Part shown: piece after piece, positions 4,226 through 16,294 of the stretch | How the letters are laid out: every line of letters starts with the position of its first letter | How positions within the stretch are numbered: the first letter of the stretch is position 1 | Translations under genes and position numbers: made by a program | The notes under the pieces: generated by a model | What the model was told of the DNA's origin: nothing | Seen by the model: the letters and a program-made list of their open reading frames with translations, nothing else | Databases searched by the model: none | Virus record (IMG/VR): IMGVR_UViG_3300003690_000003 | Location: 1 to 64,000 of that record | Reading direction: 5' to 3' (one strand) | Source: a virus | DNA length: 64,000 bases

Positions 4226-4277
4226 TGTTCTCTGTTTTGCTCCTGGGTGGGCTTGTTAGGCGCCCTTCCACTCTCTA

Positions 4278-4306: not shown

Positions 4307-4381
4307 GGCTTTTTTATTTATTGTTAAAACTTTTTCTTCTATACTAAGTAGTTGATATCGCAGGGTTCTGCTTCAAAGTTA

Positions 4382-5200: not shown

Positions 5201-5246
5201 TTTCTTTTTACTCCATCGGAGGGCTTAGGTGCCCTTCCACTCTCTT

Positions 5247-5275
5247 ATTATGCCACAGGGGCCACTCAAAGTCAA
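5247..5275 (-). promoter_or_regulatory. Promoter cassette for the zinc-knuckle gene
   Basis: TTGACT, 17 nt ending in TGG (extended -10), CATAAT. The AT-rich palindrome 5283..5305 lies just upstream of the -35. Confidence 0.75.
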
Positions 5276-5282
5276 CAATAAA

Positions 5283-5305
5283 AACTTTATTCTCAAATAA
5301 AAGTT
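5283..5305. repeat. 23-bp AT-rich inverted repeat, copy
   Basis: On the minus strand AACTTTTATT-TGA-GAATAAAGTT. The TGA in its centre is the stop codon of the SWIM gene, and the -35 of the next promoter follows within 8 nt. Further copies lie at 5650, 6206, 7553, 8388, 8998 and 9848. Confidence 0.8.
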
Positions 5306-5607
5306 TTCTTCTTTGCGTTGATATGCTTGCACTCGCGTCGGAAGTTGAAGCCGGGGCAGGTGCAGGACCAGCGACCGTCAAAGCGCACCGTGTAGGTGTT
5401 CCCCTTCGATCCCTGGACCTCCCACGACTGCGCCTCGACCTTTTCGATCTTGCGCGGGGTGTAGACCATCCAGCGACCGATCTCGTCCTGAGCCGTGCCC
5501 TCGGGCACCTCGATCCAGTCTGATCCGCTGATCGCGTAGGTCTTACCGACCCACGGCATGCTGACGATGCCGGGGGGAAACTGGACCTCGATGGGTTCGT
5601 TCATCAT
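5293..5607 (-). CDS. SWIM zinc-finger protein
   Basis: 104 residues. The C-terminal part reads TYTVRFDGRWSCTCPGFNF followed by CKH, the CxCx(n)CxH pattern of SWIM zinc fingers, which bind DNA or proteins. The N-terminal half is unassigned. The ATG lies exactly 6 nt after the -10 of its promoter, so its mRNA should be leaderless. A second ATG follows immediately. The final residues KTFI and the stop are encoded by the AT-rich palindrome. Confidence 0.85.
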   Translation of the reverse strand: MMNEPIEVQFPPGIVSMPWVGKTYAISGSDWIEVPEGTAQDEIGRWMVYTPRKIEKVEAQSWEVQGSKGNTYTVRFDGRWSCTCPGFNFRRECKHINAKKKTFI

Positions 5608-5613
5608 GTATCC

Positions 5614-5642
5614 ATTATGCCTGAGTTGAGGCGAGAAGTCAA
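5614..5642 (-). promoter_or_regulatory. Promoter cassette, leaderless type
   Basis: TTGACT, 17 nt, CATAAT, then 6 nt and ATG. The spacer ends in TCAGG, as in the cassettes at 6170 and 8352. Confidence 0.8.
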
Positions 5643-5649
5643 CAATAAA

Positions 5650-5672
5650 AACTTTATTCTCAAATAAAAGTT
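5650..5672. repeat. 23-bp AT-rich inverted repeat, copy
   Basis: Identical to the copy at 5283..5305, and at the same distance upstream of a TTGACT -35 box. Confidence 0.8.
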
Positions 5673-5674
5673 TT

Positions 5675-5743
5675 TTAGTTGTAAGTCACAACCAACATCA
5701 GGACATACAAGAAGCATACCAAAAAAACAAAAATCTCAAACAT
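5675..5743 (-). CDS. Possible 22-residue membrane peptide
   Basis: MFEIFVFLVCFLYVLMLVVT plus two residues. The ATG overlaps the stop of the preceding gene (ATGTTTGA), a typical coupled arrangement. It would be almost entirely one transmembrane helix. Too short for a family assignment. Confidence 0.4.
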   Translation of the reverse strand: MFEIFVFLVCFLYVLMLVVTYN

Positions 5744-5945
5744 TCTTGTCCTCTGTCTCCTCGGGCATCCCGAACGGGTCCACGATATCGCAGGTCGTGT
5801 CGAGCGCAACTCGCGTCACCCGAAACAGATCCTCGGTTCGCACTCGTCGGAGTGCCCCAAAAATTGAGTCAGCGTAGACGGTAAAAGTTCGCTCTTGTAC
5901 GGCTCCATCGACCATATACTGTGCGTTTACAATAAATCGGTTCAT
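5736..5945 (-). CDS. Small protein of unknown function
   Basis: 69 residues beginning MNRFIVNAQYMVDGAV. Predicted beta-alpha pattern: two strands, then SIFGALRRVRTEDLF, then VTRVALDTTCDI. It resembles small phage proteins that modify or mimic sensory input domains, but I cannot name a family. It overlaps the upstream gene by 4 nt (ATGA). Confidence 0.7.
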   Translation of the reverse strand: MNRFIVNAQYMVDGAVQERTFTVYADSIFGALRRVRTEDLFRVTRVALDTTCDIVDPFGMPEETEDKNV

Positions 5946-6160
5946 GTTTGGATCTCTTCCATATACTTCAAGAATGTTTTGTCTGTCACTCGCACATCGG
6001 CGCCCAACAAAAACTTGTGGTTTACAATCGTTACTCCATCGGAGCGATTGAAAATCTCTTCGCCCAGGTAGAGAGCAACTTTACCAGCCCACTGGACCGC
6101 GAAACGCTGGTGTGCGTTGCTGCGATAGAGTGCGCCGATTTTCATATCGCCTGCTTTCAT
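5942..6160 (-). CDS. Distant GDLV-family-like small protein
   Basis: About 72 residues from ATG 6160 (MKAGDMKIGALYRSN); an internal start at MKIGALY is also possible. The MKIG start, the short VQWAGKVALYLG strands and the C-terminal YMEEIQT fit a diverged family member. The ATG is 9 nt after the -10 with no Shine-Dalgarno site, consistent with a leaderless or near-leaderless mRNA. Confidence 0.65.
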   Translation of the reverse strand: MKAGDMKIGALYRSNAHQRFAVQWAGKVALYLGEEIFNRSDGVTIVNHKFLLGADVRVTDKTFLKYMEEIQT

Positions 6161-6169
6161 CGTATCTCT

Positions 6170-6198
6170 AGTATGCCTGAGTCCAGGCAAGAAGTCAA
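6170..6198 (-). promoter_or_regulatory. Promoter cassette, near-leaderless
   Basis: TTGACT, 17 nt ending TCAGG, CATACT, then 9 nt to ATG. The AT-rich palindrome 6206..6228 sits immediately upstream. Confidence 0.8.
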
Positions 6199-6205
6199 GG
6201 GCGAA

Positions 6206-6228
6206 AACTTTATTGTCAAATAAAAGTT
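6206..6228. repeat. 23-bp AT-rich inverted repeat, copy
   Basis: AACTTTTATT-TGA-CAATAAAGTT on the minus strand. It differs from the 5283 copy by one base in the loop. Confidence 0.8.
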
Positions 6229-6263
6229 GCCGTCGGGGTGTCGCCGGAGTATAGATTATGTTT

Positions 6264-6464
6264 CTAAGTACCTGATTTTACAGGTATTTCTTGCGCCAGT
6301 TCCAGATACCTATGCTTGCGGTCGTATTCCCCGCTGTGCTTAGGATTCTTCGTCCAGTAAATGTTGATCATATCCCCCATCCAGGGGTCGGGCGCGTACG
6401 CTAGAACGATGCCAATATCTTCTGCACCGGGGTACGTCCACCGAACAAGATCACCGGGTTTCAT
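6264..6464 (-). CDS. GDLV-family SH3-like small protein
   Basis: 66 residues, MKPGDLVRWTYPG, with DIGIVLAYAP and INIYWTKNP as the central strands. The upstream gene's stop overlaps its ATG by 4 nt. An earlier in-frame ATG would extend into that gene and is not needed. It is the last gene of the block that starts at 7507. Confidence 0.75.
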   Translation of the reverse strand: MKPGDLVRWTYPGAEDIGIVLAYAPDPWMGDMINIYWTKNPKHSGEYDRKHRYLELAQEIPVKSGT

Positions 6465-6655
6465 TTTGCGCGGCTCACAACGATCCAATGGTCGGGCGCG
6501 GCCATTTCAGGCCCGGACGTATCAAAAAACTGAATCAGAATTCTATCTAAAATCGACAGGGAGGTGATATCCATAACGAGTGCCAACGGCGGCGGCGCAT
6601 CGGGATCACCGCGATAATGTTTCAGTGTAACTAAATCACCTACTTGAAAGTTCAT
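6461..6655 (-). CDS. GDLV-family SH3-like small protein
   Basis: 64 residues, MNFQVGDLVTLKHY, with LALVMDIT and ILIQFFD strands. It ends VVSRAK, the alternative family C-terminus also seen at 201. It overlaps the preceding gene by 20 nt. Confidence 0.75.
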   Translation of the reverse strand: MNFQVGDLVTLKHYRGDPDAPPPLALVMDITSLSILDRILIQFFDTSGPEMAAPDHWIVVSRAK

Positions 6656-6818
6656 TGATAACCTCTAAGCCGTCCTGGGAGACAACCTCTGTACCGTCTG
6701 TGAAAAAAACTACCCAGCACCTTATGATACGTCCATATACTTTGATCAGCACTCCGACTTCGCCCATACTATATCGAGGACCAAAGCCGGTTGTTTTTAC
6801 AAGATCACCGATTTTCAC
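6636..6818 (-). CDS. GDLV-family SH3-like small protein
   Basis: 60 residues, starting GTG AAA ATC GGT (VKIGDLVKTTGFG) and containing EVGVLIKVYG and CWVVFFTDG. The start overlaps the end of the upstream member by exactly 14 nt. It ends LEVINELSSR: the SENR-type ending is disrupted here because the next overlap is 20 nt rather than 14. Confidence 0.75.
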   Translation of the reverse strand: MKIGDLVKTTGFGPRYSMGEVGVLIKVYGRIIRCWVVFFTDGTEVVSQDGLEVINELSSR

Positions 6819-6984
6819 TTACTAGCTCCAAGGCGTCGGCATAAGTCCAGCGAAGATCGTCAAGGTGATTGACACGAGACGACCATAGGCCGATATTGTA
6901 ACTCTGCTGGCAGACGCTAGCGACGATCCAGAGGTGCGCTTTCTTGCCGTTGCGTTTGAATCTTACGAGATCACCGATTTTCAC
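6805..6984 (-). CDS. GDLV-family SH3-like small protein
   Basis: 59 residues from a GTG start: VKIGDLVRFKRNGKKAHLWI ... ALELVSENR. It has 14-nt overlaps at both ends. TTGGAG, encoded by the codons for its own LEL, acts as the Shine-Dalgarno site of the next gene. Confidence 0.8.
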   Translation of the reverse strand: MKIGDLVRFKRNGKKAHLWIVASVCQQSYNIGLWSSRVNHLDDLRWTYADALELVSENR

Positions 6985-7159
6985 TGATTACCTCTAGCTC
7001 TCTTCTGGGGTGCGAACTCATGCAGTTATCATCCAGGCCACTGCCATCAATCCAATGAATCACTTGACGTTCGTCAGTGCCCGGTATCTGCCGAACAACG
7101 ATGCCGAACCAGTCTGCCCAACACGGATTGTTATAAACCACCAGATCACCGATTTTCAT
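6971..7159 (-). CDS. GDLV-family SH3-like small protein
   Basis: 62 residues, MKIGDLVVYNNPCWADWFG, with IVVRQI and VIHWIDG strands, ending LEVISENR. ATG start; 14-nt overlap with both neighbours. The upstream gene therefore ends NENR rather than SENR. Confidence 0.8.
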   Translation of the reverse strand: MKIGDLVVYNNPCWADWFGIVVRQIPGTDERQVIHWIDGSGLDDNCMSSHPRRELEVISENR

Positions 7160-7361
7160 TAGTTGCTTCTCGCAAGTAGTTGCTGTTTATCTGCACCACG
7201 TTGCCGGTTCTTACGTTCTGCCCCAACACGAAACCGTCGTAGCACTTACTTTCGCTAGCGGGGAGAAGTAAATACAAGTCACCGAGACCGGCCCGGGGGT
7301 TCCCGGTACTTCGCACCAGCATGCCAGCTTGCACCTGATCTCGTCGAAGATAAACGCTCAC
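7146..7361 (-). CDS. GDLV-family-like small protein, divergent N-terminus
   Basis: 71 residues from a GTG that overlaps the stop of the upstream basic protein (GTGA). VSVYLRRDQVQAGMLVRSTG replaces the usual start, with AGMLV in place of GDLV. It ends TNENR, as required by the 14-nt overlap with the ATG of the next gene. A longer frame starting at 7526 exists, but its first part is the basic protein's gene read in another frame. Confidence 0.7.
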   Translation of the reverse strand: MSVYLRRDQVQAGMLVRSTGNPRAGLGDLYLLLPASESKCYDGFVLGQNVRTGNVVQINSNYLREATNENR

Positions 7362-7507
7362 CAGTCCCGCCGCCCCTTGTGCTTCGGGTGTCGAGCATCC
7401 TTGCCGCTCCCCTTGCCAGAACCCTTGCGGGCCTTGTTCTTGTGCTTCCCTGCTCCCCGGTGGTTCCAGGCAGCGAGCGCAATCAGGTTTCGTCCGTTTC
7501 GCTTCAT
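7358..7507 (-). CDS. Small, highly basic protein
   Basis: 49 residues, MKRNGRNLIALAAWNHRGAG followed by a Lys/Arg/Gly/His-rich tail (KHKNKARKGSGKGSGKD...). It could bind nucleic acid by charge. It is the first gene of its block, 9 nt after the -10 with no ribosome-binding site, so the message should be nearly leaderless. Confidence 0.7.
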   Translation of the reverse strand: MKRNGRNLIALAAWNHRGAGKHKNKARKGSGKGSGKDARHPKHKGRRDW

Positions 7508-7516
7508 CGTGCTTAT

Positions 7517-7545
7517 AGAATACCACGGGCGACGGGTCAAGTCAA
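7517..7545 (-). promoter_or_regulatory. Promoter cassette, near-leaderless
   Basis: TTGACT, 17 nt ending GTGG (extended -10), TATTCT, then ATAAGCACG and ATG. The same TATTCTATAA follows in the 8962 cassette. Confidence 0.8.
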
Positions 7546-7552
7546 GGGTGAA

Positions 7553-7575
7553 AACTTTATTGTCAAATAAAAGTT
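7553..7575. repeat. 23-bp AT-rich inverted repeat, copy
   Basis: Same sequence as the 6206 copy. Its outer end is shared with the closing stem of the structured RNA element at 7573..7725. Confidence 0.8.
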
Positions 7576-7725
7576 AGAGGGTGCGGGTTCTCTTCGGTCC
7601 CCGCTGCCTAGCCTCCTGGCAACTTGTATTCGTAAGAGCAATCACGGAAGTGTGATCCTTTTTATAAGTCTCTTACAGGGATTCAGGAGAGGCGTTGAAT
7701 CCCGCTTAATATAATACCCTCTAAC
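7573..7725 (-). ncRNA. Candidate structured RNA, multi-stem
   Basis: The 150-nt interval between two genes is almost fully accounted for by base pairing. GTTAGAGGGT (7716-7725, minus strand) pairs perfectly with ACCCTCTAAC (7573-7582), a 10-bp closing stem. Inside are GGGATTCA/TGAATCCC (8 bp, 7678-7703), GTAAGAG/CTCTTAC (7 bp) enclosing ATCAC/GTGAT, a GCC/GGC stem and GCGGG/CCCGC (7583-7604). GCGGG near 7704 could instead pair with the CCCGC copy, suggesting a switch or pseudoknot. It is not a recognisable tRNA, tmRNA or terminator. It begins at the stop codon of the gene at 7725..8345 and may be part of that mRNA. Confidence 0.5.
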
Positions 7726-8345
7726 TACTTAACATTCTTGCGCTTTTTCGCTTTCTTCAAGTCGCGTTCTTCGCAGATTACTGGAGTAGCCGAACCAATG
7801 GGGATCACCTCGTAACGCTTGCCGCCTCTGGCGTGTGTCAACACCTCGGGAAGTGCCCGTAGAATCATCGCAGGCTTGCCGCCCAGACCGTAGCTCACGC
7901 GGGCCGCTTTCCGAAACTCGACCATGCTTGCGGCTGCGAACTTTGGTTCATCCAGTGAGTTCGTCAAGACCGCTTGCGCGTACTTATTGCCAGTGATCGC
8001 GCTATACTGCTTCTCTGTTGGAACCCACTCGGGATCTCCCATCGCGCTGGAAACAATACTTTGAAAATATCCGTTGCGATAGTAGTAGGCTGCAACGATT
8101 TGCAATCGTTGTGCCTTGTCGGCATCCCACACTTCTTCCCAATCCTTGTTGGCTGCAAGCACTTTGTCACTGTAGTTACCCTCGATCTCTTCGAGGATGT
8201 CGGTCTGTCGCGGGGAGAGGTTTCGCCCTTCCTGCGCTTGATCTCTCAGAGACGAGGCAAAGCCAAAATCCCAGGAGTTTTCATCTTTGATACGCTCGAT
8301 CAGGTTCTCAAGTCGCTGGATCATCTTGTCTCCGGTGTTGTCCAT
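7725..8345 (-). CDS. Phage protein of unknown function, 206 residues
   Basis: Begins MDNTGDKMIQRLENLIERIK and ends in a lysine-rich tail (KKAKKRKNVK). A helical N-terminal half contains SPRQTDILEEIEGNYSDK, and a middle segment has AYYYRNGYFQSIVSSAMGD. I cannot assign a family. The ATG is exactly 6 nt after the -10, so the mRNA is predicted leaderless. The structured RNA element follows directly. Confidence 0.8.
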   Translation of the reverse strand: MDNTGDKMIQRLENLIERIKDENSWDFGFASSLRDQAQEGRNLSPRQTDILEEIEGNYSDKVLAANKDWEEVWDADKAQRLQIVAAYYYRNGYFQSIVSSAMGDPEWVPTEKQYSAITGNKYAQAVLTNSLDEPKFAAASMVEFRKAARVSYGLGGKPAMILRALPEVLTHARGGKRYEVIPIGSATPVICEERDLKKAKKRKNVK

Positions 8346-8351
8346 ACTCTA

Positions 8352-8380
8352 ATTATGCCTGAATCGAAGAAGAAAGTCAA
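8352..8380 (-). promoter_or_regulatory. Promoter cassette, leaderless type
   Basis: TTGACT, 17 nt ending TCAGG, CATAAT, 6 nt, ATG. The AT-rich palindrome 8388..8410 lies just upstream. Confidence 0.8.
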
Positions 8381-8387
8381 CCCTCTA

Positions 8388-8410
8388 AACTTTATTCTCA
8401 AATAAAAGTT
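8388..8410. repeat. 23-bp AT-rich inverted repeat, copy
   Basis: Same as the 5283 copy. It overlaps the stop codon (8409-8411) of the upstream gene. Confidence 0.8.
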
Positions 8411-8699
8411 ATGCGGGCCAAAGGGGCGCACTGTTGCGGAATACCGTGGGGTGCATCACTTCGTTAGCATGACGCTTCGCCTTGTTTACATGGGTCGAAG
8501 TTGTGACAGAATGAAAGCATCCACCGGGCGCGGTGAAGTCGCCCACGACGACTAGCCCGCCAGAAGTGCGGTGAGCGATCTTCGCGCCATACGAGAGCAA
8601 CTCGCGCCCGTCGCTGCTCAGGTTGCCAGTGTGACTGATCGCCCTTTCACCTCGGGCGAAGGCGGCCACTACTTTATCATTCTTAACTGTATCAAACAT
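8409..8699 (-). CDS. Phage protein of unknown function, 96 residues
   Basis: MFDTVKNDKVVAAFARGERA, then SSDGRELLSYGAKIAHRTSG and GGLVVVGDFTAPGG, then a basic segment HVNKAKRHANEV. It looks like a small alpha/beta domain. It is co-transcribed with the GDLV-family gene just upstream. No family recognised. Confidence 0.7.
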   Translation of the reverse strand: MFDTVKNDKVVAAFARGERAISHTGNLSSDGRELLSYGAKIAHRTSGGLVVVGDFTAPGGCFHSVTTSTHVNKAKRHANEVMHPTVFRNSAPLWPA

Positions 8700-8700
8700 T

Positions 8701-8955
8701 TTAACTCCTTGAAATCACACGGATTTCGCTTAGGTATTGGACGCTCCGAACGTCGGGCCAAGTGATATCATAACACCGGCTCCCTCGCGGGGTGTCAACA
8801 TGTTGAGCCGCCGTGGTGTAGGACAGCCCATCGTATAGATTGGAGTGGACTGGGTCTAGCTCACGGATCTTGTGGACAACACCCACCTGACCACGATCAC
8901 CATCGATCTTCATCTTTACCAGATCGCCTACGCGGGGGATAAGTTCCTCATTCAT
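8701..8955 (-). CDS. GDLV-family SH3-like small protein, first gene of block
   Basis: 84 residues, MNEELIPRVGDLVKMKIDGD, with GVVHKIRELD, YDITWPDV and a terminal IRVISRS. It is larger than average because of an insertion between the two halves. The ATG is exactly 6 nt after the -10; leaderless mRNA predicted. Confidence 0.8.
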   Translation of the reverse strand: MNEELIPRVGDLVKMKIDGDRGQVGVVHKIRELDPVHSNLYDGLSYTTAAQHVDTPRGSRCYDITWPDVRSVQYLSEIRVISRS

Positions 8956-8961
8956 GCTTAT

Positions 8962-8990
8962 AGAATACCATGTGCCGGGTTATAAGTCAA
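8962..8990 (-). promoter_or_regulatory. Promoter cassette, leaderless type
   Basis: TTGACT, 17 nt ending CATGG, TATTCT, ATAAGC, ATG. Confidence 0.85.
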
Positions 8991-8997
8991 GCACCAA

Positions 8998-9020
8998 AAC
9001 TTTATTCTCAAATAAAAAAG
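8998..9020. repeat. 23-bp AT-rich inverted repeat, imperfect copy
   Basis: One arm is intact (AACTTTATTCTCAAATAAA); the other ends AAAAAG instead of AAAGTT. Confidence 0.7.
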
Positions 9021-9028
9021 ATTATGTT

Positions 9029-9094
9029 TTAAGTTGTGGATATTACTTCTAAAAACTCGGCCAACTCGACACTCGTTTCGCGCCCGACTTTCAT
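9029..9094 (-). CDS. Remnant-like mini GDLV-family gene (21 residues)
   Basis: MKVGRETSVELAEFLEVISTT joins a family N-terminus (MKVG) to a family C-terminus (FLEVIS), with the whole middle missing. It still overlaps the upstream gene by ATGA. This is what an internal deletion of a normal member would leave. It is too small to form the SH3-like fold; it may be a decaying gene. Confidence 0.5.
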   Translation of the reverse strand: MKVGRETSVELAEFLEVISTT

Positions 9095-9378
9095 CTTACG
9101 ATCTCCATCCGTCCATCCTGTAGCGCATCGTCGAAAGTTTGCGGGGTATGCTTACAAATCTCCGGCTCGCCTATCCAATCAACCGCAAAATACTCGTCTG
9201 CAAAATCCATCGGATGCTCACGCCCGCAATCTACAAGATCGTGGCAATCGGCGCGGTGCGTGTGAGGGCAATCGGTACAAGTCGGCAGTGGCACAGACAG
9301 AACAATCCCAAGATCGTCGTCGCCAGAGTCGTCGTCATTCCACCGAAGTAAAGTTCCGATGTCAATGGTTTGTTTCAT
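9091..9378 (-). CDS. GDLV-family-like protein with Cys/His-rich insertion
   Basis: 95 residues, MKQTIDIGTLLRWNDDDSGD, then DLGIVLSV, then an insertion CTDCPHTHRADCHDLVDCGR that could bind a metal ion, then FAVDWIGEP. It ends MEIVR. A typical member has no cysteine cluster here, so a small zinc-binding loop appears to have been inserted between the two beta halves. Confidence 0.75.
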   Translation of the reverse strand: MKQTIDIGTLLRWNDDDSGDDDLGIVLSVPLPTCTDCPHTHRADCHDLVDCGREHPMDFADEYFAVDWIGEPEICKHTPQTFDDALQDGRMEIVR

Positions 9379-9599
9379 CCTATGACCTCCAGTTGTCGCT
9401 GATAGATGGATTCTTCTAGTCTGTCGGGTGAATGTTCACTAACTTCGCCCTCTGTCGCCCACGCGATACTATAACATCCCTGCCAGTCCTCACCGGGCAG
9501 CCCCACAACAATCCCAATATCATCTATATCTTCGTCGCGCATTTCGTCGCCGTGCCAAAGAACCAACATTCCAATTCTCAACTCACTGTGGGTTGGCAT
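9375..9599 (-). CDS. GDLV-family SH3-like small protein
   Basis: 74 residues, MPTHSELRIGMLVLWHGDEM, with DIGIVVGLPG and YSIAWAT strands and a terminal RQLEVIG. It overlaps the next gene by 4 nt and the previous one by 17 nt. Confidence 0.75.
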   Translation of the reverse strand: MPTHSELRIGMLVLWHGDEMRDEDIDDIGIVVGLPGEDWQGCYSIAWATEGEVSEHSPDRLEESIYQRQLEVIG

Positions 9600-9813
9600 A
9601 AGACAAAATCTCCACAGAATCGCGGCGAACGTACTCTAGCCCTGAGTGTCCCTCCCAAGGCACCGCGAACAGGCGAACCCAAATATGAATGCCATAAGTA
9701 TCCACTATCAGGCCGACGGCGCCCTCAAGAACGATGTGAACTTGCAGAGTCTGTAGAGGACCGAGAATCAGCTTCACTACATCGCCCAACCGTGGCTTTT
9801 TACGTCGCTCCAT
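9583..9813 (-). CDS. GDLV-family-like protein, first gene of block
   Basis: 76 residues, MERRKKPRLGDVVKLILGPL, with VGLIVDTYGI and FAVPWEG. The ATG lies 6 nt after the -10 (leaderless). The block continues through three more members to 9029. Confidence 0.75.
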   Translation of the reverse strand: MERRKKPRLGDVVKLILGPLQTLQVHIVLEGAVGLIVDTYGIHIWVRLFAVPWEGHSGLEYVRRDSVEILSYANPQ

Positions 9814-9819
9814 GATTAT

Positions 9820-9848
9820 AGAATAGCATGGGAGGGCTGCGATGTCAA
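9820..9848 (-). promoter_or_regulatory. Promoter cassette, leaderless type
   Basis: Consensus TTGACA, 17 nt ending CATGC, TATTCT, ATAATC, ATG. Confidence 0.85.
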
Positions 9849-9870
9849 ACTTTTATTTGAATATAAAGTT
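9848..9870. repeat. 23-bp AT-rich inverted repeat, opposite orientation
   Basis: AACTTTTATTTGAATATAAAGTT on the plus strand: the same palindrome as at 5283, but with the longer arm on the other side. It abuts the -35 box. Confidence 0.75.
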
Positions 9871-9871
9871 C

Positions 9872-10069
9872 TCACCGGGCTGCACTTACAACCTCAAATT
9901 GGTGACTGCTATCTGCAACAATCGTGCCATCAGGCCAGCGAACGTGAATAATATCTGTCCAGCCCTCCGGGGGGTACTGGCTCGCGGCTCGGTGCACCTC
10001 ATACACCAGACCGACCAAATCAATATCCGATATCTCCTGGTCGTACCTCACCAGATCACCGATGTTCAT
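9872..10069 (-). CDS. GDLV-family SH3-like small protein
   Basis: 65 residues, MNIGDLVRYDQEISDIDLVG, with LVYEVHRA and IIHVRWPDG strands, ending FEVVSAAR. It is the last member of a five-gene run, so its C-terminus is not constrained by an overlap and is not SENR. Confidence 0.85.
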   Translation of the reverse strand: MNIGDLVRYDQEISDIDLVGLVYEVHRAASQYPPEGWTDIIHVRWPDGTIVADSSHQFEVVSAAR

Positions 10070-10223
10070 TTAGCAACTCCAGTGCCTCCCGTGCAAGCCA
10101 ACGAATCCTAGAGTCTCTCAAAAATCGCACACGGACTTCCGATTCTTTATGAGCAACCGCAATAACGAGCGCGGGATTCCCGCGACAGGGACCACCGACG
10201 AGCACAAGATCACCGATTTTCAC
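10056..10223 (-). CDS. GDLV-family SH3-like small protein
   Basis: 55 residues from GTG: VKIGDLVLVGGPCRGNPALV ... LELLNEHR. One of the shortest members. 14-nt overlaps at both ends. The NEHR ending follows from the next gene's ATG AAC ATC start. A longer frame from 10340 would run through the upstream gene. Confidence 0.85.
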   Translation of the reverse strand: MKIGDLVLVGGPCRGNPALVIAVAHKESEVRVRFLRDSRIRWLAREALELLNEHR

Positions 10224-10416
10224 TGAGTAACTCCAAGTTATAATCGTTGTGCCAGAATGTTGTTTTTGCGTCAAACCACGCAACGGCGTAAGAAATCGCG
10301 GGGGAGTCTCCGCTGCAACCGTCGCGGGGTCCGCCCACAATGATTCCTGTGTCGCGTCGAGCGAAAGGCCGAGGGCTCTCCTCTGCGTGCCACTTTACCA
10401 AGTCACCGATTTTCAC
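10210..10416 (-). CDS. GDLV-family SH3-like small protein
   Basis: 68 residues from GTG: VKIGDLVKWHAEESPRPFAR, with DTGIIVGGPRDG, YAVAWFDA and terminal LELLSENR. 14-nt overlaps on both sides. Confidence 0.85.
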   Translation of the reverse strand: MKIGDLVKWHAEESPRPFARRDTGIIVGGPRDGCSGDSPAISYAVAWFDAKTTFWHNDYNLELLSENR

Positions 10417-10612
10417 TGACTACCTCAAACTTCCAGTCGCTTGTGCGGAATATTCCATCATCGTCCCCAAAGTTAAGGAGGATAATTCCATCAGGGTCGC
10501 GCATTTCGCCATCAAAGCCCAACTTGGTTACAACACCAATCTGGGTGTAATCGTCGACGCTTACATTCCACTTTGCGAGTGGGGTTACCTTTACCAAGTC
10601 ACCGATTTTCAT
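10403..10612 (-). CDS. GDLV-family SH3-like small protein
   Basis: 69 residues, MKIGDLVKVTPLAKWNVSVD, with QIGVVTKLG and IILLNFGD and terminal FEVVSENR. Its GAG GTA codons place a GAGGT ribosome-binding site 5 nt before the GTG of the next gene. Confidence 0.85.
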   Translation of the reverse strand: MKIGDLVKVTPLAKWNVSVDDYTQIGVVTKLGFDGEMRDPDGIILLNFGDDDGIFRTSDWKFEVVSENR

Positions 10613-10817
10613 TTAGCAACTCCAACGCGCTCGTCGCAAGTCGGTGAGTGTAACTAAACTGAGGGAAACAAACTGCGCGTCGAGACCCACCCAAATCTTT
10701 GGTGATGATCCCCAACTCGTTCTCGATATGATATTCCATGTTCTCGACACAGTTGGTGCTGACATTGAATCGGCCACCGGGCTGCCAGAGGCAGCGTACA
10801 AGATCACCGATTTTCAT
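10599..10817 (-). CDS. GDLV-family SH3-like small protein
   Basis: 72 residues, MKIGDLVRCLWQPGGRFNVS, with ELGIITKDLGG and terminal LELLNENR. It starts within a half copy of the AT-rich palindrome just downstream of the 194-residue gene and has no obvious Shine-Dalgarno site. Confidence 0.85.
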   Translation of the reverse strand: MKIGDLVRCLWQPGGRFNVSTNCVENMEYHIENELGIITKDLGGSRRAVCFPQFSYTHRLATSALELLNENR

Positions 10818-10830
10818 TTGAAAATAAAGT

Positions 10831-11415
10831 TTAGGCGTTTTCGAGTTGCTTCTTGGTCAGTTCTGCGATCTTCAACTCTGCCTTGCGCTTGAAATTGTCC
10901 CCATAGTGGTAACGCTCATCCACTTTCAACACGGAGATTTTAATGGCAAGGTTCAAAGAACAGTTAGGATGCTCGACGAATCGTGTCAGGTGATAGCCGT
11001 GTGAGCTTTCGTTTACAGGGATATCGTCATAAATCTGTTCTAGCAACGCGGTGGGAGTCTTATTGGCTCCGATGTTCTCGCCCCAGTACCTCTGGCCCAG
11101 GAACGCACTCATCATGCGCCAGTATGACCGACTGTTCCTCTTGAAATACTTGTTATAAACGTCCCAATAGGTCTGTTCGTCAATATCGATTGCTCCGGTT
11201 CGCAAAAGCTCAGACTTAAAGACGTAGCCGCGCTGGTTCCACAGAATCTCGGCAGCTTCCTGGGTGATCTTAGGGTTGCAGGCAAGATAACTCTTTGCCA
11301 GCCTATAGGGATGATTAGCGATTGCCAGTTGCGTTTCGGCATCGGTAAATCGGTTCTTTGCGAGTCCGGTCAACTCGCTGTTATACATTTCTGTGATTTT
11401 ATCTGCGAAGGACAT
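10831..11415 (-). CDS. Unknown protein with LRV/HEAT-like repeats
   Basis: 194 residues. Segments such as AIANHPYRLAKSYLACNPKI and FVEHPNCSLNLAIKIS follow the 'x-HP/NP-x-x-x-x-x-A' rhythm of variant leucine-rich or HEAT-like helical repeats, which mediate protein binding. The family assignment is uncertain. Unlike its neighbours it has a 31-nt leader with GGAGACAG before the ATG. It heads a block that continues into five overlapping GDLV genes. Confidence 0.75.
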   Translation of the reverse strand: MSFADKITEMYNSELTGLAKNRFTDAETQLAIANHPYRLAKSYLACNPKITQEAAEILWNQRGYVFKSELLRTGAIDIDEQTYWDVYNKYFKRNSRSYWRMMSAFLGQRYWGENIGANKTPTALLEQIYDDIPVNESSHGYHLTRFVEHPNCSLNLAIKISVLKVDERYHYGDNFKRKAELKIAELTKKQLENA

Positions 11416-11446
11416 TCTGTCTCCAGGTGGTGTTTATCGTATCTAT

Positions 11447-11475
11447 AGAATAGCATGGATAACCGATGCCGTCAA
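11447..11475 (-). promoter_or_regulatory. Promoter cassette with leader
   Basis: TTGACG, 17 nt ending CATGC, TATTCT. It has the same architecture as the leaderless cassettes but is followed by a leader with a Shine-Dalgarno site. A half palindrome lies upstream at 11478-11498. Confidence 0.8.
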
Positions 11476-11496
11476 GAGTTTTCTTTGAAAATAAAG

Positions 11497-11721
11497 TTAG
11501 TTGTCTATGTCAGCGCAATTGCTGTGCTTTTCGACGGTATCTTCCATAACTTCGCGCAACAGCGCGTCAATACTGAAATATTCTTCATCAGTCTCATCCC
11601 ACAACACGCCGATCATCCCTAGCATTTCTTCCACTTCGGGTGGAGGCAGACCTTCTTCCCGTCGCGTTGCAGTTAGGCGGTCGAGTGCGGTGCTTCCAAT
11701 GTTACTCATTAGACTCATCAT
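11497..11721 (-). CDS. Small acidic protein of unknown function
   Basis: 74 residues from MMSLMSNIGSTALDRLTATR, rich in Glu/Asp (PEVEEMLGMIGVLWDETDEE). An in-frame ATG at 11742 lies only 2 nt from the -10, where transcription cannot yet have begun, so the ATG at 11721 with GGAGAA 6 nt before it is the better start. No family recognised. Confidence 0.7.
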   Translation of the reverse strand: MMSLMSNIGSTALDRLTATRREEGLPPPEVEEMLGMIGVLWDETDEEYFSIDALLREVMEDTVEKHSNCADIDN

Positions 11722-11744
11722 GTCGAATTCTCCATCGTACATAC

Positions 11745-11772
11745 ATTATAAGTAGTTTTCATTATCTGTCAA
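11745..11772 (-). promoter_or_regulatory. Consensus sigma-70 promoter
   Basis: TTGACA, 16 nt, TATAAT: perfect hexamers. It overlaps the end of the upstream gene. Confidence 0.8.
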
Positions 11773-12020
11773 ATCCTATTTCTCTTGCGTCGATACTTTT
11801 TATTCGGTACGAGGTAAACGTCTGTCACGGCGCCATCATCGAGACACTCATAAAAGCCCTTCGTGGCAATCCGCGAGATTGCGGCCGGAATAAGCCCATG
11901 CCCAACGCGAGACACCACCTTATAGTAAAACTTGCCATTCTTCTTGTCCACGATAATGCCCAAACCTCCAGCGGTCTTGAACATATCACCAACGCAAAGA
12001 TGATACTCGCACACGATCAA
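11769..12020 (-). CDS. GDLV-family-like protein with basic tail
   Basis: 83 residues, MIVCEYHLCVGDMFKTAGGL, with GIIVDKKNGKFYYKVVS; VGDMF replaces GDLV. The C-terminus is strongly basic (NKKYRRKRNRI). ATGA overlap with the preceding gene. Confidence 0.7.
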   Translation of the reverse strand: MIVCEYHLCVGDMFKTAGGLGIIVDKKNGKFYYKVVSRVGHGLIPAAISRIATKGFYECLDDGAVTDVYLVPNKKYRRKRNRI

Positions 12021-12193
12021 TCCAACTCTGAAAGAATTTCATAGTCGGTAAGCATTTGCCACTCTTTCCAGTCAGCAAATCTGACCCACTCCTGGGCGGC
12101 ATCGCACTTGTATTCTGTAACAATCTTCATAATGCCAGTCCCGTTAATCTTTCGGAGCAGCGCACCAATAATAACCATGCCGCGAGGTTTCAT
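12017..12193 (-). CDS. Small protein, distant GDLV-family member
   Basis: 58 residues, MKPRGMVIIGALLRKINGTG, ending YEILSELD. The ATG at 12193 has AGGAGACAG before it; an upstream in-frame start would lie within the preceding gene. Family membership is weak and rests on size, position and the ExLSE ending. Confidence 0.65.
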   Translation of the reverse strand: MKPRGMVIIGALLRKINGTGIMKIVTEYKCDAAQEWVRFADWKEWQMLTDYEILSELD

Positions 12194-12201
12194 TCTGTCT
12201 C

Positions 12202-12468
12202 CTAGTAACTGATTGAAGTGTGGGGGTAAATATCCCAAAATCCATCGCCCACACAAGTAATGTCAGCGGAGTCTTCGCCCACTTTAACAAACCTGAAATG
12301 CTCGGAAGAAGCAGAACCCGCGCCCGAGTCGTGATCGGGGGGATCTTCCTCAAACTCCCACGTATCGCAACCAGCGTCGTCAACAAACTTTTCGATAAGA
12401 TCGATAACCTTGTATTCCGGGCCGACTGTGCCGCTGTACCACTTGATACCATCCCATACTACCAGCAA
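12202..12468 (-). CDS. Acidic small protein of unknown function
   Basis: About 88 residues from a TTG start with AGGAG just before it, LLVVWDGIKWYSGTVGPEYK..., Asp/Glu-rich (DTWEFEEDPPDHDSGAG). It overlaps the upstream member by 10 nt. The unusual TTG start is the only one compatible with the operon spacing. Confidence 0.6.
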   Translation of the reverse strand: MLVVWDGIKWYSGTVGPEYKVIDLIEKFVDDAGCDTWEFEEDPPDHDSGAGSASSEHFRFVKVGEDSADITCVGDGFWDIYPHTSISY

Positions 12469-12677
12469 CTCCTAGAAACTACTATGAAATTTGAGGATAG
12501 GTGCATGCTGCTCCGTGATCGTGTATCGTTGTGCAGTCGAACATAATACGTGGTTCTGCTGTTGGCGTCCGTTGCTGACCATGCCTCGATCACAAGATGG
12601 GTGGCCGGCTTCGCGCCGTGTATATGCTGCTTGAACTTCACCAAGTCGCCAACTTTAATGCCGTCGTTCTTAACCAT
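12459..12677 (-). CDS. GDLV-family SH3-like small protein, first gene of block
   Basis: 72 residues, MVKNDGIKVGDLVKFKQHIH, with HLVIEAWSAT and YYVRLHND strands and terminal FIVVSRSCW. The ATG is exactly 6 nt after the -10 (leaderless). Confidence 0.8.
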   Translation of the reverse strand: MVKNDGIKVGDLVKFKQHIHGAKPATHLVIEAWSATDANSRTTYYVRLHNDTRSRSSMHLSSNFIVVSRSCW

Positions 12678-12683
12678 GTATAT

Positions 12684-12712
12684 AGAATACCACGCGAGGG
12701 CGCGAGAGTCAA
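12684..12712 (-). promoter_or_regulatory. Promoter cassette, leaderless type
   Basis: TTGACT, 17 nt ending CGTGG, TATTCT, ATATAC, ATG. The TGA inside the -35 box is the stop codon of the upstream gene at 12709..12921. Confidence 0.85.
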
Positions 12713-12921
12713 TCTTTTACTTCAAAATAAAGTTCTGGATTGGAAGTCTCTGGAATCACTGACAAATCTTGTCGCACCTCCCAGGAGTCTCGACTCAAAC
12801 TCTTGTCGTCGTTCCACTGAACGAGGTACTGAAAGCGTGTCGCGTCTAGTTCGCGGACGGTATCAAGAACCGTGCCAATCGATCCGGTAAAAGAATGTTG
12901 AACTGTATCACCGATTGTCAT
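12709..12921 (-). CDS. GDLV-family SH3-like small protein
   Basis: 70 residues, MTIGDTVQHSFTGSIGTVLD, with YLVQWNDDK. Its last residues (ELYFEVKD) read through a degenerate AT-rich palindrome and stop inside the -35 box of the next promoter. GDTV replaces GDLV. 4-nt overlap with the preceding gene. Confidence 0.8.
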   Translation of the reverse strand: MTIGDTVQHSFTGSIGTVLDTVRELDATRFQYLVQWNDDKSLSRDSWEVRQDLSVIPETSNPELYFEVKD

Positions 12922-13127
12922 TTTGTATTTGCCTTCGAGATTAGGGTTAGGTTGCGCTCAAACGCCCAAGTTTGTTGGTTGCCGTCGAACCATGCAATCC
13001 AGTATGCGGGCCGCTTATAAGGGTGAACCCAGGCGCGGGCGTGTTTTTCTGTCACCGGACCAACTATAACTCCGCGCCACGCGACCGCCTGGGCATGTTG
13101 ATATTCAATCAGGTCGCCGCGTTGCAT
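12918..13127 (-). CDS. GDLV-family SH3-like small protein
   Basis: 69 residues, MQRGDLIEYQHAQAVAWRGV, with IVGPVTE and YWIAWFDGN strands. It overlaps the upstream member by 23 nt. A promoter-like sequence lies inside the upstream gene just before this start. Confidence 0.8.
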   Translation of the reverse strand: MQRGDLIEYQHAQAVAWRGVIVGPVTEKHARAWVHPYKRPAYWIAWFDGNQQTWAFERNLTLISKANTK

Positions 13128-13350
13128 CTACTCTCTCCACTTCATTACTATAATACCACGATGGTTCTGTGTTGTCAACCCAAGAAATAAAAAACATTGT
13201 CACGCCCTGAGCTATCACATTAGGAAGGGGAGGATCAACTCTTGAACCAGACTGGAGGGTGGAAATATCACAGGTATCAGTCACAAGACCCAAGCCCCTC
13301 TGGCCGGAAGTGAATATATGAACGCTATAAACCAAGTCACCGACTTTCAT
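13105..13350 (-). CDS. GDLV-family SH3-like small protein
   Basis: 81 residues, MKVGDLVYSVHIFTSGQRGL, with FFISWVDNTEPSWYYSNEVE near the C-terminus. The ATG overlaps the upstream stop (ATGA). The bases for VDNTEPSWYY also spell a good promoter. Confidence 0.8.
   Translation of the reverse strand: MKVGDLVYSVHIFTSGQRGLGLVTDTCDISTLQSGSRVDPPLPNVIAQGVTMFFISWVDNTEPSWYYSNEVERVDATRRPD
13150..13178 (-). promoter_or_regulatory. Candidate intragenic promoter
   Basis: TTGACA, 17 nt ending CGTGG, TATTAT: the same extended -10 style as the intergenic cassettes, but wholly inside the coding sequence of 13105..13350. It would serve 12918..13127, whose ATG lies 22 nt downstream and is preceded by a GGAGAG ribosome-binding site. 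Confidence 0.5.
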
Positions 13351-13544
13351 CTTGCGATCTCTAAGGCTTTTTCGTACCATAAAACAATATTTTGACTGTC
13401 ATACCAATAAACCTCAAACTCTTCCTCCGACTCTTCAAATCTTTCCGGCCCCATGCGAATAATAATCCCCATGCGTCCGTACGGACACGGAAACTCTTGC
13501 AAGTCCTCGCGCTGTTTATAAGTTACCAAATCACCGACCTTCAC
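13347..13544 (-). CDS. GDLV-family SH3-like small protein
   Basis: 65 residues from GTG: VKVGDLVTYKQREDLQEFPC, with RMGIIIRMGP and FEVYWYDSQ, ending LEIAR. 14-nt overlap with the upstream gene. Confidence 0.85.
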   Translation of the reverse strand: MKVGDLVTYKQREDLQEFPCPYGRMGIIIRMGPERFEESEEEFEVYWYDSQNIVLWYEKALEIAR

Positions 13545-13731
13545 TGATTACCCCCAGATACTTTTCTTCCCACCAGCCTTCGTTACCGCAAGTGTACCAC
13601 CTGATTTCCCAGCGTCGTTTCGCATTATTGCCAGACCACCCATCGATGGGGCCACGCACAATAATTCCATGCGAGGGCGTTGAGGGGGGACTGCCGCACT
13701 CAATGAATTCTACTAAATCACCGATTTTCAT
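13531..13731 (-). CDS. GDLV-family SH3-like small protein
   Basis: 66 residues, MKIGDLVEFIECGSPPSTPS, with HGIIVRGPIDG and WEIRWYTCG. It ends VISEGR: the G instead of N follows from the next gene beginning GTG AAG GTC (VKV) rather than GTG AAA ATC (VKI). Confidence 0.85.
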   Translation of the reverse strand: MKIGDLVEFIECGSPPSTPSHGIIVRGPIDGWSGNNAKRRWEIRWYTCGNEGWWEEKYLGVISEGR

Positions 13732-13867
13732 TTATTAACTCCAAGCAAGAAGGGTGTGCCTCCGCTCTCTTTCCAGAGAAAAGCTCAATCCTCGCAGTGG
13801 CATCCCCCAAAAAAACAAGAATACCTAGTCCCCGATACGGGACTCTTACCAAACTACCGATTTTCAC
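13718..13867 (-). CDS. GDLV-family SH3-like small protein (GSLV variant)
   Basis: 49 residues from GTG: VKIGSLVRVPYRGLGILVFL ... LELINENR. The upstream gene ends in TAG instead of TGA, and this changes residue 5 of this protein from Asp to Ser, a direct consequence of the shared bases. A longer frame from 13900 runs into the upstream gene and is not the start. Confidence 0.85.
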   Translation of the reverse strand: MKIGSLVRVPYRGLGILVFLGDATARIELFSGKRAEAHPSCLELINENR

Positions 13868-14063
13868 TGATAACCTCCAAAGTCTCGGGGCCGGTTGCAT
13901 AAATATCTGAGCTACCGGGGATCACAATATCGACCATCAGGTTGTCACGCTCAGGATGGGAAGTAATCTCATAAGGCTCGCGAATAACAATGTATAGTGG
14001 GCGATCCTCTATCGGAGTGCCCCAGCTTTCGGGCGTGAATGTTACCAAGTCACCGATTTTCAC
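13854..14063 (-). CDS. GDLV-family SH3-like small protein
   Basis: 69 residues from GTG: VKIGDLVTFTPESWGTPIED, with LYIVIREPYE and MVDIVIPGS, ending LEVISENR and TAG. 14-nt overlaps at both ends. Confidence 0.85.
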   Translation of the reverse strand: MKIGDLVTFTPESWGTPIEDRPLYIVIREPYEITSHPERDNLMVDIVIPGSSDIYATGPETLEVISENR

Positions 14064-14277
14064 TTACTCGCTCCAGCATGCCTCGGCTGTGCCAATCATC
14101 TATTTCTTCGTGTTCATGGTAAGTGAGTTGGTCGTCTTCGTCTCGCCAGTGGATGCCCACTTCTTCTTCGTCGGAGTCCACAAACAACACCACTCCAAGA
14201 TCATGGTCGTGGTCGGGACTGTGACGATAGTTGAATCTCACCAGATCGCCAGTGTTTAGAACCTCGCTAATCTTCAT
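14050..14277 (-). CDS. GDLV-family SH3-like small protein, first gene of block
   Basis: 75 residues, MKISEVLNTGDLVRFNYRHS, with DLGVVLFVDSDEEE and VGIHWRDE, ending LERVSENR. The ATG is exactly 6 nt after the -10 (leaderless). It leads a chain of 14-nt overlaps through 13531. Confidence 0.85.
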   Translation of the reverse strand: MKISEVLNTGDLVRFNYRHSPDHDHDLGVVLFVDSDEEEVGIHWRDEDDQLTYHEHEEIDDWHSRGMLERVSENR

Positions 14278-14283
14278 GCTTCT

Positions 14284-14312
14284 AGCATACCATGTCAGAA
14301 GCGCAGGGTCAA
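14284..14312 (-). promoter_or_regulatory. Promoter cassette, leaderless type
   Basis: TTGACC, 17 nt ending CATGG, TATGCT, AGAAGC, ATG. A palindrome copy (arm TTTTATTTGAAAATAAAGTTT) lies at about 14314-14335. Confidence 0.85.
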
Positions 14313-14334
14313 GGCTTTTATTTGAAAATAAAGT

Positions 14335-15273
14335 TTAGGCCCAAGGGGTCTTAATCTTTTCTTTCTTGTAGTGCTTCACGCACCCTCCGGGTCGGGAGTA
14401 GTCCTTTTTGAACCAGAGCGCGATGATACCGTTAGCGAAACTTTCAATAGTTCTGTTTTGCTCGGGGGGGGACTCGCCCTTAACTTGAGTCTGGAATTCT
14501 TGGCTCGTTATTTCCTGTAGTCTCTCAGTAAAAATCGCCCAATCCTTCCCCACTTTAGTTGTAGCAGCAAACAAGGCAGGATTTGCTTCGTAGATCATCG
14601 CAAAGCCGCCCAGCATGGGCTTGTTAAGCTTGTTAAGACTAGGCCACGTACCCCTAACAGTTTGGATTGATTCTTTGATAGCCTGAAGGCCCGTCGCATC
14701 ACTACCTATAAGGTTTTCCACAACGGTAAATGTTTGTGCGCTGACTCGACTACCGTGGAGGTCGCCTACGATACCACCCGGCTCGGAACAACCATAAACG
14801 TAAGCGCCACACTGTTGCATCCTGGCAACCTGCGCTTGCACTTGGGCGTCTATCTGAAACTTATGGACATACCTTTCATCGGGTGTAAGAGCCTTTGTCT
14901 TACCCCCGTTACAGTTATCGAAGTTTCTGTGATAAGTGTCCACGTCGTCTATTTCTGTAACGTAAGCCCACATGTGCGTTGCCTGTGGGAAGGTCAACCG
15001 GAACATATGTGTGGTATGATCACCGTTCATGCGTTCCAGCCGTCCCCCCGCAGCACGGATCCTGTGCACCAGCGGGGGTACATGGATGCTCCAGTCCCAT
15101 ACCCAATCGTCCGTCTGTTCATCTTTCATCTGCTTTTCTAGCTGTTTTCCCTTTGTATCTCTGTTGATCCGGGAGGGGGTGTCTACGGGGACCAGTTCTA
15201 GTTTTCCCTGCTTTCCTCTAACCTTGGGGGCGCCGGGCTTAATGGCGCATGCGCCTACAATCTTATTGCTCAT
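14335..15273 (-). CDS. Phage protein of unknown function, 312 residues
   Basis: MSNKIVGACAIKPGAPKVRG, with a Lys/Arg/Pro-rich N-terminal 50 residues, then a mixed alpha/beta body with WDWSIHVPPLVHRIRAAGG, FPQATHMWAYVTEIDDVDTY and a basic C-terminus (KHYKKEKIKTPWA). I recognise no family. It lies alone between two GDLV blocks behind a 45-nt leader. Confidence 0.8.
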   Translation of the reverse strand: MSNKIVGACAIKPGAPKVRGKQGKLELVPVDTPSRINRDTKGKQLEKQMKDEQTDDWVWDWSIHVPPLVHRIRAAGGRLERMNGDHTTHMFRLTFPQATHMWAYVTEIDDVDTYHRNFDNCNGGKTKALTPDERYVHKFQIDAQVQAQVARMQQCGAYVYGCSEPGGIVGDLHGSRVSAQTFTVVENLIGSDATGLQAIKESIQTVRGTWPSLNKLNKPMLGGFAMIYEANPALFAATTKVGKDWAIFTERLQEITSQEFQTQVKGESPPEQNRTIESFANGIIALWFKKDYSRPGGCVKHYKKEKIKTPWA

Positions 15274-15318
15274 AATATTTATCTACCTCTTTTGCAGTTG
15301 TTGTTTGACCGTCTTTAG

Positions 15319-15346
15319 AGTATAACACACTTTTTGTGAAAAGTAA
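15319..15346 (-). promoter_or_regulatory. Sigma-70-like promoter
   Basis: TTACTT, 16 nt, TATACT upstream of the 312-residue gene. It overlaps no coding sequence. Confidence 0.6.
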
Positions 15347-15354
15347 CCCTTTTT

Positions 15355-15573
15355 TCAAAAATATTTCTTAATTATTTCAAGATGGCCTACTTCGTGGCAA
15401 TCGCGCCCCAAGGGCCAGTGAACTTCAATGGGGGTGTAGGAAATATCATTATGCGCGGCGGGAACCTCGGAGTGTTCCTTGATAACGATACCGACCGCAT
15501 CGTGATTTATGTTGGGATACCACGCGGCTACCACTCCATCGGGCGTCAGCCGCACAAGATCGCCAATGTTCAT
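15355..15573 (-). CDS. GDLV-family SH3-like small protein
   Basis: 72 residues, MNIGDLVRLTPDGVVAAWYP, with AVGIVIKEH and PIEVHWPLG, ending LEIIKKYF. ATGA overlap with the preceding gene; an in-frame extension to 15645 lies within that gene. Confidence 0.8.
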   Translation of the reverse strand: MNIGDLVRLTPDGVVAAWYPNINHDAVGIVIKEHSEVPAAHNDISYTPIEVHWPLGRDCHEVGHLEIIKKYF

Positions 15574-15809
15574 GCTGCAACCGATATTACCCTGATTTGG
15601 TTTTTGGTACAATGAGAGACGCGTTCGTGCTGCATCGAGTTCCATACAAGAAACCTCGGATTTTCAAACCAACGAACAACAAAACCATCCGTTAGGCTAT
15701 AGTGAGCGTTCAAAAAGCTCTTTTCTTCAACGATGATGCCTTGTCCTTCGACATAGCCCCGCTTAGTTTCAACGAGGGAACCGACTCTATACTTGCTTTT
15801 TCGTGCCAT
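15570..15809 (-). CDS. GDLV-family SH3-like small protein, first gene of block
   Basis: 79 residues, MARKSKYRVGSLVETKRGYV, with GQGIIVEEKSF and FVVRWFENP, ending IRVISVAA. The ATG is 6 nt after a near-consensus -10 (leaderless). Confidence 0.8.
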   Translation of the reverse strand: MARKSKYRVGSLVETKRGYVEGQGIIVEEKSFLNAHYSLTDGFVVRWFENPRFLVWNSMQHERVSHCTKNQIRVISVAA

Positions 15810-15815
15810 GTTTAT

Positions 15816-15844
15816 ATCATATCATCTTTCGCTGCTGGTGTCAA
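15816..15844 (-). promoter_or_regulatory. Promoter cassette, leaderless type
   Basis: TTGACA, 17 nt ending ATGA, TATGAT, ATAAAC, ATG. It lies in the last codons of the upstream gene 15822..16151. Confidence 0.85.
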
Positions 15845-16151: not shown

Positions 16152-16168
16152 TTTCTTTCCTTTGGTAT

Positions 16169-16245: not shown

Positions 16246-16294
16246 GCGCGGGGTAGATCATTTTTGAGTATTCTCTTAGGTTCGTAAGCACCGT

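Follow-up and report, generated by a model that had tools for sequence, protein, structure and literature searches.

The 64,000-nucleotide stretch analyzed here (hereinafter the window) comprises positions 1 to 64,000 of the IMG/VR virus record IMGVR_UViG_3300003690_000003, which is 170,861 bp long. Four operon-like arrays of small paralogous genes were found on its minus strand between approximately 6.2 and 19.3 kb, and the overlapping junctions between consecutive members are the subject of this analysis. The members encode proteins of 50-80 amino acids (aa) with the N-terminus MK(I/V)GDLV. The junction sequence RTGAAAATCGGTGA was matched 19 times in the window at two mismatches or fewer, compared with 1.1 matches expected, and 0 of 100 shuffles reached this number; 18 of the 19 matches were located on the minus strand (6132-18951). 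A first interpretation, made from the sequence alone (the sequence-only reading), had listed twelve junctions at which the end of one paralog overlaps the start of the next by 14 nucleotides (nt). Open reading frame (ORF) coordinates confirmed all of them, each upstream stop lying 13 nt past the next start (Table 1). Other family junctions in the window overlapped by 4 nt (at 6461, 12918, 13347, and 19090), 20 nt (6636), 23 nt (13105), or 1 nt (18757). Another exact 14-nt overlap, of unrelated sequence (GTGGAGCGATTTAA) and with the stop TAA, was present at 18533-18546.

The comparison was based on 228 sequences, nearly all of them IMG/VR viral contigs. These were fetched by junction patterns, and all frequencies given below refer to the fetched contigs, not to all phages. 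IMG/VR was scanned for exact matches to the joint plus Shine-Dalgarno sequence, which yielded 32 stretches for the ATC version and at least 120 for the GTC version, and a third joint pattern yielded 80 more. Among 994 member-member joints in all loci, 827 (83%) were exact 14-nt overlaps and 102 were 4-nt overlaps; in an earlier, smaller locus set, the overlap was exactly 14 nt at 675 of 799 joints. As a control for ascertainment bias, joints matching the first two fetch patterns were removed, and 456 of 575 were still of the 14-nt type. The fetched loci contained 1,726 distinct members, and 26 virus records of 159-293 kb, including that of the window, carried 7-27 detectable members each. The junction was also identified in six contigs of metagenome-assembled genomes (MAGs). 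In addition, member genes (eight matches) were present in L160 (CP070664.1), a 2.14-Mb MAG chromosome of candidate division WOR-3; these are possibly part of a prophage or mis-binned phage DNA, and are a possible lead to the host.

When the 14-nt joints were aligned on the start codon, a conserved patch of 32 nt was found from -13 to +19 (TTGGAGGTnATmARTGAAARTCGGTGAYYTGGTA), with almost zero information outside this range. The 14-nt overlap proposed in the sequence-only reading was borne out, whereas the conserved patch was longer than the homology of about 20 bp that it had assumed. In the upstream frame, the patch encodes Leu-Glu-Val of the last strand, followed by the tail S/N-E-N/S/G-R-stop. 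In the downstream frame, it provides the Shine-Dalgarno sequence GGAGGT, the start codon RTG, and the N-terminus MK(V/I)GDLV, so that GGAGG lies inside the upstream gene at -11 to -7 of the follower start. Stops are present in both other frames of the patch (RTGA and GGTGA). Whichever of these frames an incoming upstream gene is in, it terminates no more than 14 nt from the next start, with an overlap of 4 or 14 nt, and any member is therefore able to precede any other.

Synonymous constraint at the joints, which the sequence-only reading had suggested examining, was detected at two codons. The Gly-4 codon was GGT in 97.9% of cases in the 14-nt frame; the share fell to 79% for the 4-nt frame, to 59% for leader starts, and to 29% within gene bodies. 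The bias was the same after fetch-pattern matches had been dropped. For the last-strand Glu, the ratio of GAG to GAA was 453:41 in members with a follower and 33:40 in those without (p = 2e-19 by Fisher test, after removal of pattern matches). Since the GAG bias is limited to members with a follower, the strand acts as a Shine-Dalgarno sequence only where one is needed. These biases show selection beyond the protein requirement.

The C-terminal tail SENR had been regarded in the sequence-only reading as a by-product of the next gene's N-terminus, and this was strongly supported. A SENR-like tail was found in 595 of 645 members with a 14-nt follower, in 0 of 71 with a 4-nt follower, and in only 8 of 169 without a follower, the last being the class in which conserved SENR ends would have contradicted the claim. 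In 65 homologous pairs differing in follower state, the tail was gone in 60 from the partner whose follower was missing or in the ATGA register. Within the window, members 10403, 6636, and 13854 end in FEVVSENR, NELSSR, and ISENR; their counterparts in loci L033 and L035 end in QVKTFI, NENR or DLINTA, and LSGTRN, respectively, according to what follows. The tail is located outside the predicted barrel described below and is the lowest-confidence part of the structure model. It is not wholly free, however: third bases in the overlap that would replace the terminal Arg by Trp were avoided (T in 7 of 282 cases vs 13 of 72 at leaders), indicating a mild constraint of its own. The claim that terminal members end differently was incorrect for those ending in SRAK (6461) and IAR (13347), both of which have a 4-nt ATGA follower. 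The member ending in SAAR (9872) ends on a ghost start, and GTGCAGCCCGGTGAG is likely the stump of a lost follower.

Gains and losses of members were found between closely related contigs. Loci L054 and L055, whose flanks are 99.5-100% identical, differed by precisely a single member; in L054, two copies of ATGAAAGTCGGTGATTTGGT, a 20-nt repeat, flank this additional member, and L055 keeps one of them. Two one-member differences with a 16-nt overlap at the breakpoints were identified between L093 and L212 (95-98% identity), and one with a 21-nt overlap between L127 and L215 (99.4%). These four clean single-member events in near-identical pairs were all bounded by junctions, with a patch overlap of 16-21 nt, as the sequence-only reading had predicted for insertions and deletions in relatives. 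In L069 and L220 (99.3-99.8%), one cassette was swapped for a diverged allele, and L023 and L025 differed in one member plus a diverged neighbor. Members were permuted between L023 plus L095 and L085, with flanks of 98% identity, and window members 10403, 10210, and 6636 occur in another order in L033 and L035, the closest array relatives. Between L098 and L135 (about 99.8% identical), the sole difference was a tRNA plus a small ORF; this was rejected as a junction event, as the insertion is outside any junction. L017/L039 was rejected as an informative pair, being 99.98% collinear.

Between contigs, 70% of the 5' ends of homologous blocks were within -20 to +5 of a member start (13% expected), and 79% of the 3' ends were within -5 to +25 (20% expected). 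For array homologues, the follower was unchanged in 75, 12, and 6% of cases at identities of at least 90, 70-90, and 50-70%, compared with 100, 69, and 53% for non-array genes. One member cluster had nine different followers among 13 contigs.

Single members gave only weak Pfam and PHROG matches, and no Pfam family was detected at cut-off. From a 72-sequence alignment, AlphaFold2 produced a five-stranded barrel with a mean predicted local distance difference test (pLDDT) score of 92.5. The model showed template modeling (TM) scores of 0.78-0.88 to KOW domains of Spt5/NusG, the other nearest folds being the SH3-like domain of MutS2 and PWWP, and a profile search of solved structures also retrieved Spt5 KOW (E = 5e-4). 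The members are thus predicted to be SH3/KOW-like barrels, in which LEV and the N-terminal VGDLV would form the last and first strands. They share this predicted barrel fold with the domains of Spt5, NusG, and MutS2, but unlike these they are stand-alone phage proteins of 50-80 aa.

We consider, with a probability of roughly 0.7, that these loci are tandem overlapping arrays of small SH3/KOW-fold phage genes behaving as interchangeable cassettes, with the 32-nt dual-coded patch at the joints. Between related phages, whole members come and go, are replaced, and change their order, the breakpoints lying at the patch, and the tail comes from the follower. A ribosome stopping at GGTGA would resume translation from the start codon that it has just passed (translational coupling), and general recombination may use the repeated patch as homology when members are deleted, duplicated, or exchanged. 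The phage encodes a RecA-family gene (132 bits) and a gp32-like single-strand binding protein (51 bits), which makes short-homology recombination plausible. It is suggested, tentatively, that the junction is a selected, self-renewing exchange element that combines ribosome-binding site, start, all-frame stop, and recombination homology, and allows repertoires of small SH3/KOW proteins for takeover or counter-defence to change without a dedicated recombinase. The built-in cassette exchange system of the sequence-only reading is accordingly upheld as to whole-member differences at junctions, permutation, and fast follower turnover, while the patch as cause, or as a selected system, is retained only conditionally.

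Several observations weigh against this interpretation. Breakpoints at gene ends were also enriched in non-array genes (0.23 vs 0.09 expected; arrays, 0.84 vs 0.36), and the boundary enrichment was of the same fold in both, with odds ratios of about 9 for arrays and 3 for non-array genes. With this control, the boundary statistic counts as weak evidence, and breakpoint position by itself does not establish the patch as the driver of exchange, because exchange of whole genes followed by selection would leave the same breakpoints. The L098/L135 difference arose away from any junction, part of the indels at 16-21-nt repeats could be metagenome assembly errors, and the contigs had been selected by the junction itself. 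The enrichment in ordinary genes also favors a possible, though not probable, explanation by compression and descent, in which an ancestral gene was duplicated in tandem, the 14-nt overlap was kept only by protein and ribosome-binding constraints, and turnover reflects selection-filtered illegitimate recombination in which the patch has no role. Junctions of 1, 4, 20, and 23 nt are tolerated, and part of the patch is required by the protein, as VGDLV and LEV correspond to the first and last barrel strands. This explanation is opposed by the turnover of followers, several-fold faster than that of neighboring non-array genes at equal divergence, by the patch overlap at the breakpoint in all four clean single-member differences, and by synonymous constraint above the protein need.

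It is rather doubtful that the overlap is primarily a translational device that fixes coupled, stoichiometric synthesis of hetero-oligomer subunits, with changes of order being neutral. The canonical position of GGAGG, the GAG bias found only with a follower, and a stop located 10-14 nt beyond the follower start would fit such a device; translational coupling is reported for overlapping gene pairs, whose products are often subunits of heteromeric complexes (PMC10666635). The members are extremely diverse, however, their number and set vary between near-identical phages, and a given member does not keep its follower; fixed subunits would not be expected to behave in this way. An annotation or assembly artefact, in which the small ORFs or indels are not real, is highly improbable: the material consists of metagenome contigs with 16-21-nt repeats and of ORFs known from sequence alone, but 1,726 distinct ORFs from many samples share a common foldable domain, a two-frame codon constraint, and a fixed ribosome-binding site and start.

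The coordinates of the junctions, arrays, and promoter-like sequences in the window are listed in Table 1. Promoter and palindrome were found at operon ends only, and the junction patch contains no promoter. The stop TGA formed part of a TTGAC -35-like box belonging to the following promoter in 51 of 169 terminal members, compared with 8 of 1,020 members with a follower; examples are 12709-12712 in the window and loci L023, L024, L037, L050, L065, L080, L085, L101, and L106. An AT-rich palindrome of 24 bp, AACTTTTATTTGA(G/C)AATAAAGTTT, is present in nine copies at 3055-14336, directly upstream of many -35 boxes; together with TTGAC it was found in just three other IMG/VR contigs. A function as terminator was judged unlikely, since the palindrome is weak as an RNA hairpin, and a role as an operator or UP-like element is more probable. 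At 10817-10831, a member starts within a truncated palindrome copy with no evident promoter or Shine-Dalgarno sequence, and this start is likely a recombination scar.

Table 1. Junctions, arrays, and promoter-like sequences identified in the window.
Feature	Position	Strand	Basis
14-nt junction of members 14050-14277 and 13854-14063	14050-14063	-	ORF coordinates and RTGAAAATCGGTGA scan
14-nt junction, GTGAAAATCGGTAG, tail SENR-TAG, follower MKIGSLV	13854-13867	-	ORF coordinates and scan
14-nt junction, NENR / MKIGDLV	13718-13731	-	ORF coordinates and scan
14-nt junction, GTGAAGGTC, SEGR / MKVGDLV	13531-13544	-	ORF coordinates and scan
14-nt junction	10599-10612	-	ORF coordinates and scan
14-nt junction	10403-10416	-	ORF coordinates and scan
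14-nt junction	10210-10223	-	ORF coordinates and scan
14-nt junction, ATGAACATC, NEHR / MNIGDLV	10056-10069	-	ORF coordinates and scan
14-nt junction, upstream ORF a divergent member with tail NENR	7146-7159	-	ORF coordinates
14-nt junction	6971-6984	-	ORF coordinates and scan
14-nt junction	6805-6818	-	ORF coordinates and scan
14-nt junction, GTGAAAACC, SENR / MKTGDL	18938-18951	-	ORF coordinates and scan
4-nt ATGA junction behind SRAK member	6461-6464	-	ORF coordinates
4-nt ATGA junction behind IAR member	13347-13350	-	ORF coordinates
Array A, eight members, overlaps 14, 14, 14, 14, 4, 23, 4; last stop TGA (12711-12709) within next -35 box TTGACT	12709-14277	-	
Array B, five members, four 14-nt overlaps; first starts in truncated palindrome, last ends on ghost start (SAAR)	9872-10817	-	
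Array C, overlaps 14, 14, 14, 20, 4	6264-7526	-	
Array D, overlaps 4, 14, 1, 14 (last 14 nt of unrelated sequence, stop TAA)	18355-19260	-	ORF coordinates
Ghost start GTGCAGCCCGGTGAG (MQPGENFIFK-stop) behind SAAR member, running into operon-end palindrome	9862-9880		
Sigma-70-like promoter TTGACC-17-TATGCT, array A	14283-14312	-	
Sigma-70-like promoter overlapping stop of member 12709-12921	12683-12712	-	
Sigma-70-like promoter upstream of array C	7516-7545	-	
Sigma-70-like promoter, array D	19266-19295	-	

Three tRNA genes (Ile-tat, Leu-caa, and Lys-ttt) were identified at 16169-18311, between small-gene operons. The window also encodes a GroEL (30080-31651; 605 bits), accompanied by two ClpP-like proteases (33603-34196 and 38948-39550), a B12-dependent ribonucleotide reductase, and ThyX. 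An adenylosuccinate synthetase homologue (39550-40542) scored higher against PurA (274 bits) than against PurZ (134 bits), under all NCBIfam cut-offs, and is adjoined by an IMP dehydrogenase/GMP reductase-like gene (36662-37696).

The arrays resemble phage boundary-sequence mosaicism and the shuffling of small genes by promoter-early-stem-loop (PeSL) elements, yet differ in being coding in both frames. PeSLs combine a promoter and a terminator. They were reportedly described by Arbiol et al. in 2010 and Comeau et al. in 2014. In T4-type phages, these short module-end repeats are credited with shuffling small genes between related phages, according to PMC4503421. Short repeats at the ends of shuffled small phage genes are common to both systems, and the operon ends of the window do have a palindrome beside the promoter. 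By description, however, PeSLs carry a promoter and stem-loop, whereas the array patch is coding, holds the start, the stop, and the ribosome-binding site, and connects paralogs of one family inside one operon; the exchange points lie inside two coding frames and not at an intergenic early promoter with a stem-loop. In lambdoid phages, short homology at gene boundaries has been proposed to provide crossover points (Clark et al., 2001; Susskind and Botstein, 1978, as cited in PMC3029335). The same short sequence at the boundaries of exchanged modules was also found here, the 32-nt patch occurring at block ends and in the four clean cases; it differs in recurring many times per genome and across phages, and in being dual-coded, with both frames kept automatically.

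Overlapping gene pairs overlap by 4 nt in about 45% of cases and by 1 nt in about 15% (PMC3887535), and longer overlaps are rare in Haloferax volcanii (PMC10666635). The arrays share with termination-reinitiation pairs the stop/start overlap and the Shine-Dalgarno sequence in the upstream gene; such pairs mostly overlap by 4 or 1 nt, whereas the array joints overlap by 14 nt in the large majority and the overlap sequence itself is conserved. Integrons likewise hold interchangeable small gene cassettes in an array, using an integrase and attC sites. In the present arrays, the joint is coding sequence, and no recombinase or attC-like site is proposed. Among named phage genomes, the array had no megablast match, tblastn of a 962-aa protein and of two members gave no match, and junction matches were at chance level only, at the search sensitivities used; no relatives were found via the neighboring 312-aa gene. 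No paper containing MKVGDLV or MKIGDLV and none on tandem overlapping phage paralogs was found, and nothing in the searched literature describes the arrangement.

It is an old question how reading frames and expression are kept while early phage genes shuffle, and one dual-coded sequence appears to solve both. Many large phages, for the most part uncultured, have this arrangement: the patch is found again and again in viral contigs of 159-293 kb that come from numerous samples, in which the near-identical natural pairs are ready-made test cases. It also provides a rule, taken from nature, for concatenating genes without scars. A conserved C-terminus like SENR can be an artefact of the gene that follows. 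The host-like sigma-70 promoters at the heads of the operons suggest early expression and, together with the turnover of members, point to a role in host interaction; the products may act early in host takeover or counter-defence, their turnover being diversifying. This large unnamed family would then be a candidate host-interaction repertoire of these phages.

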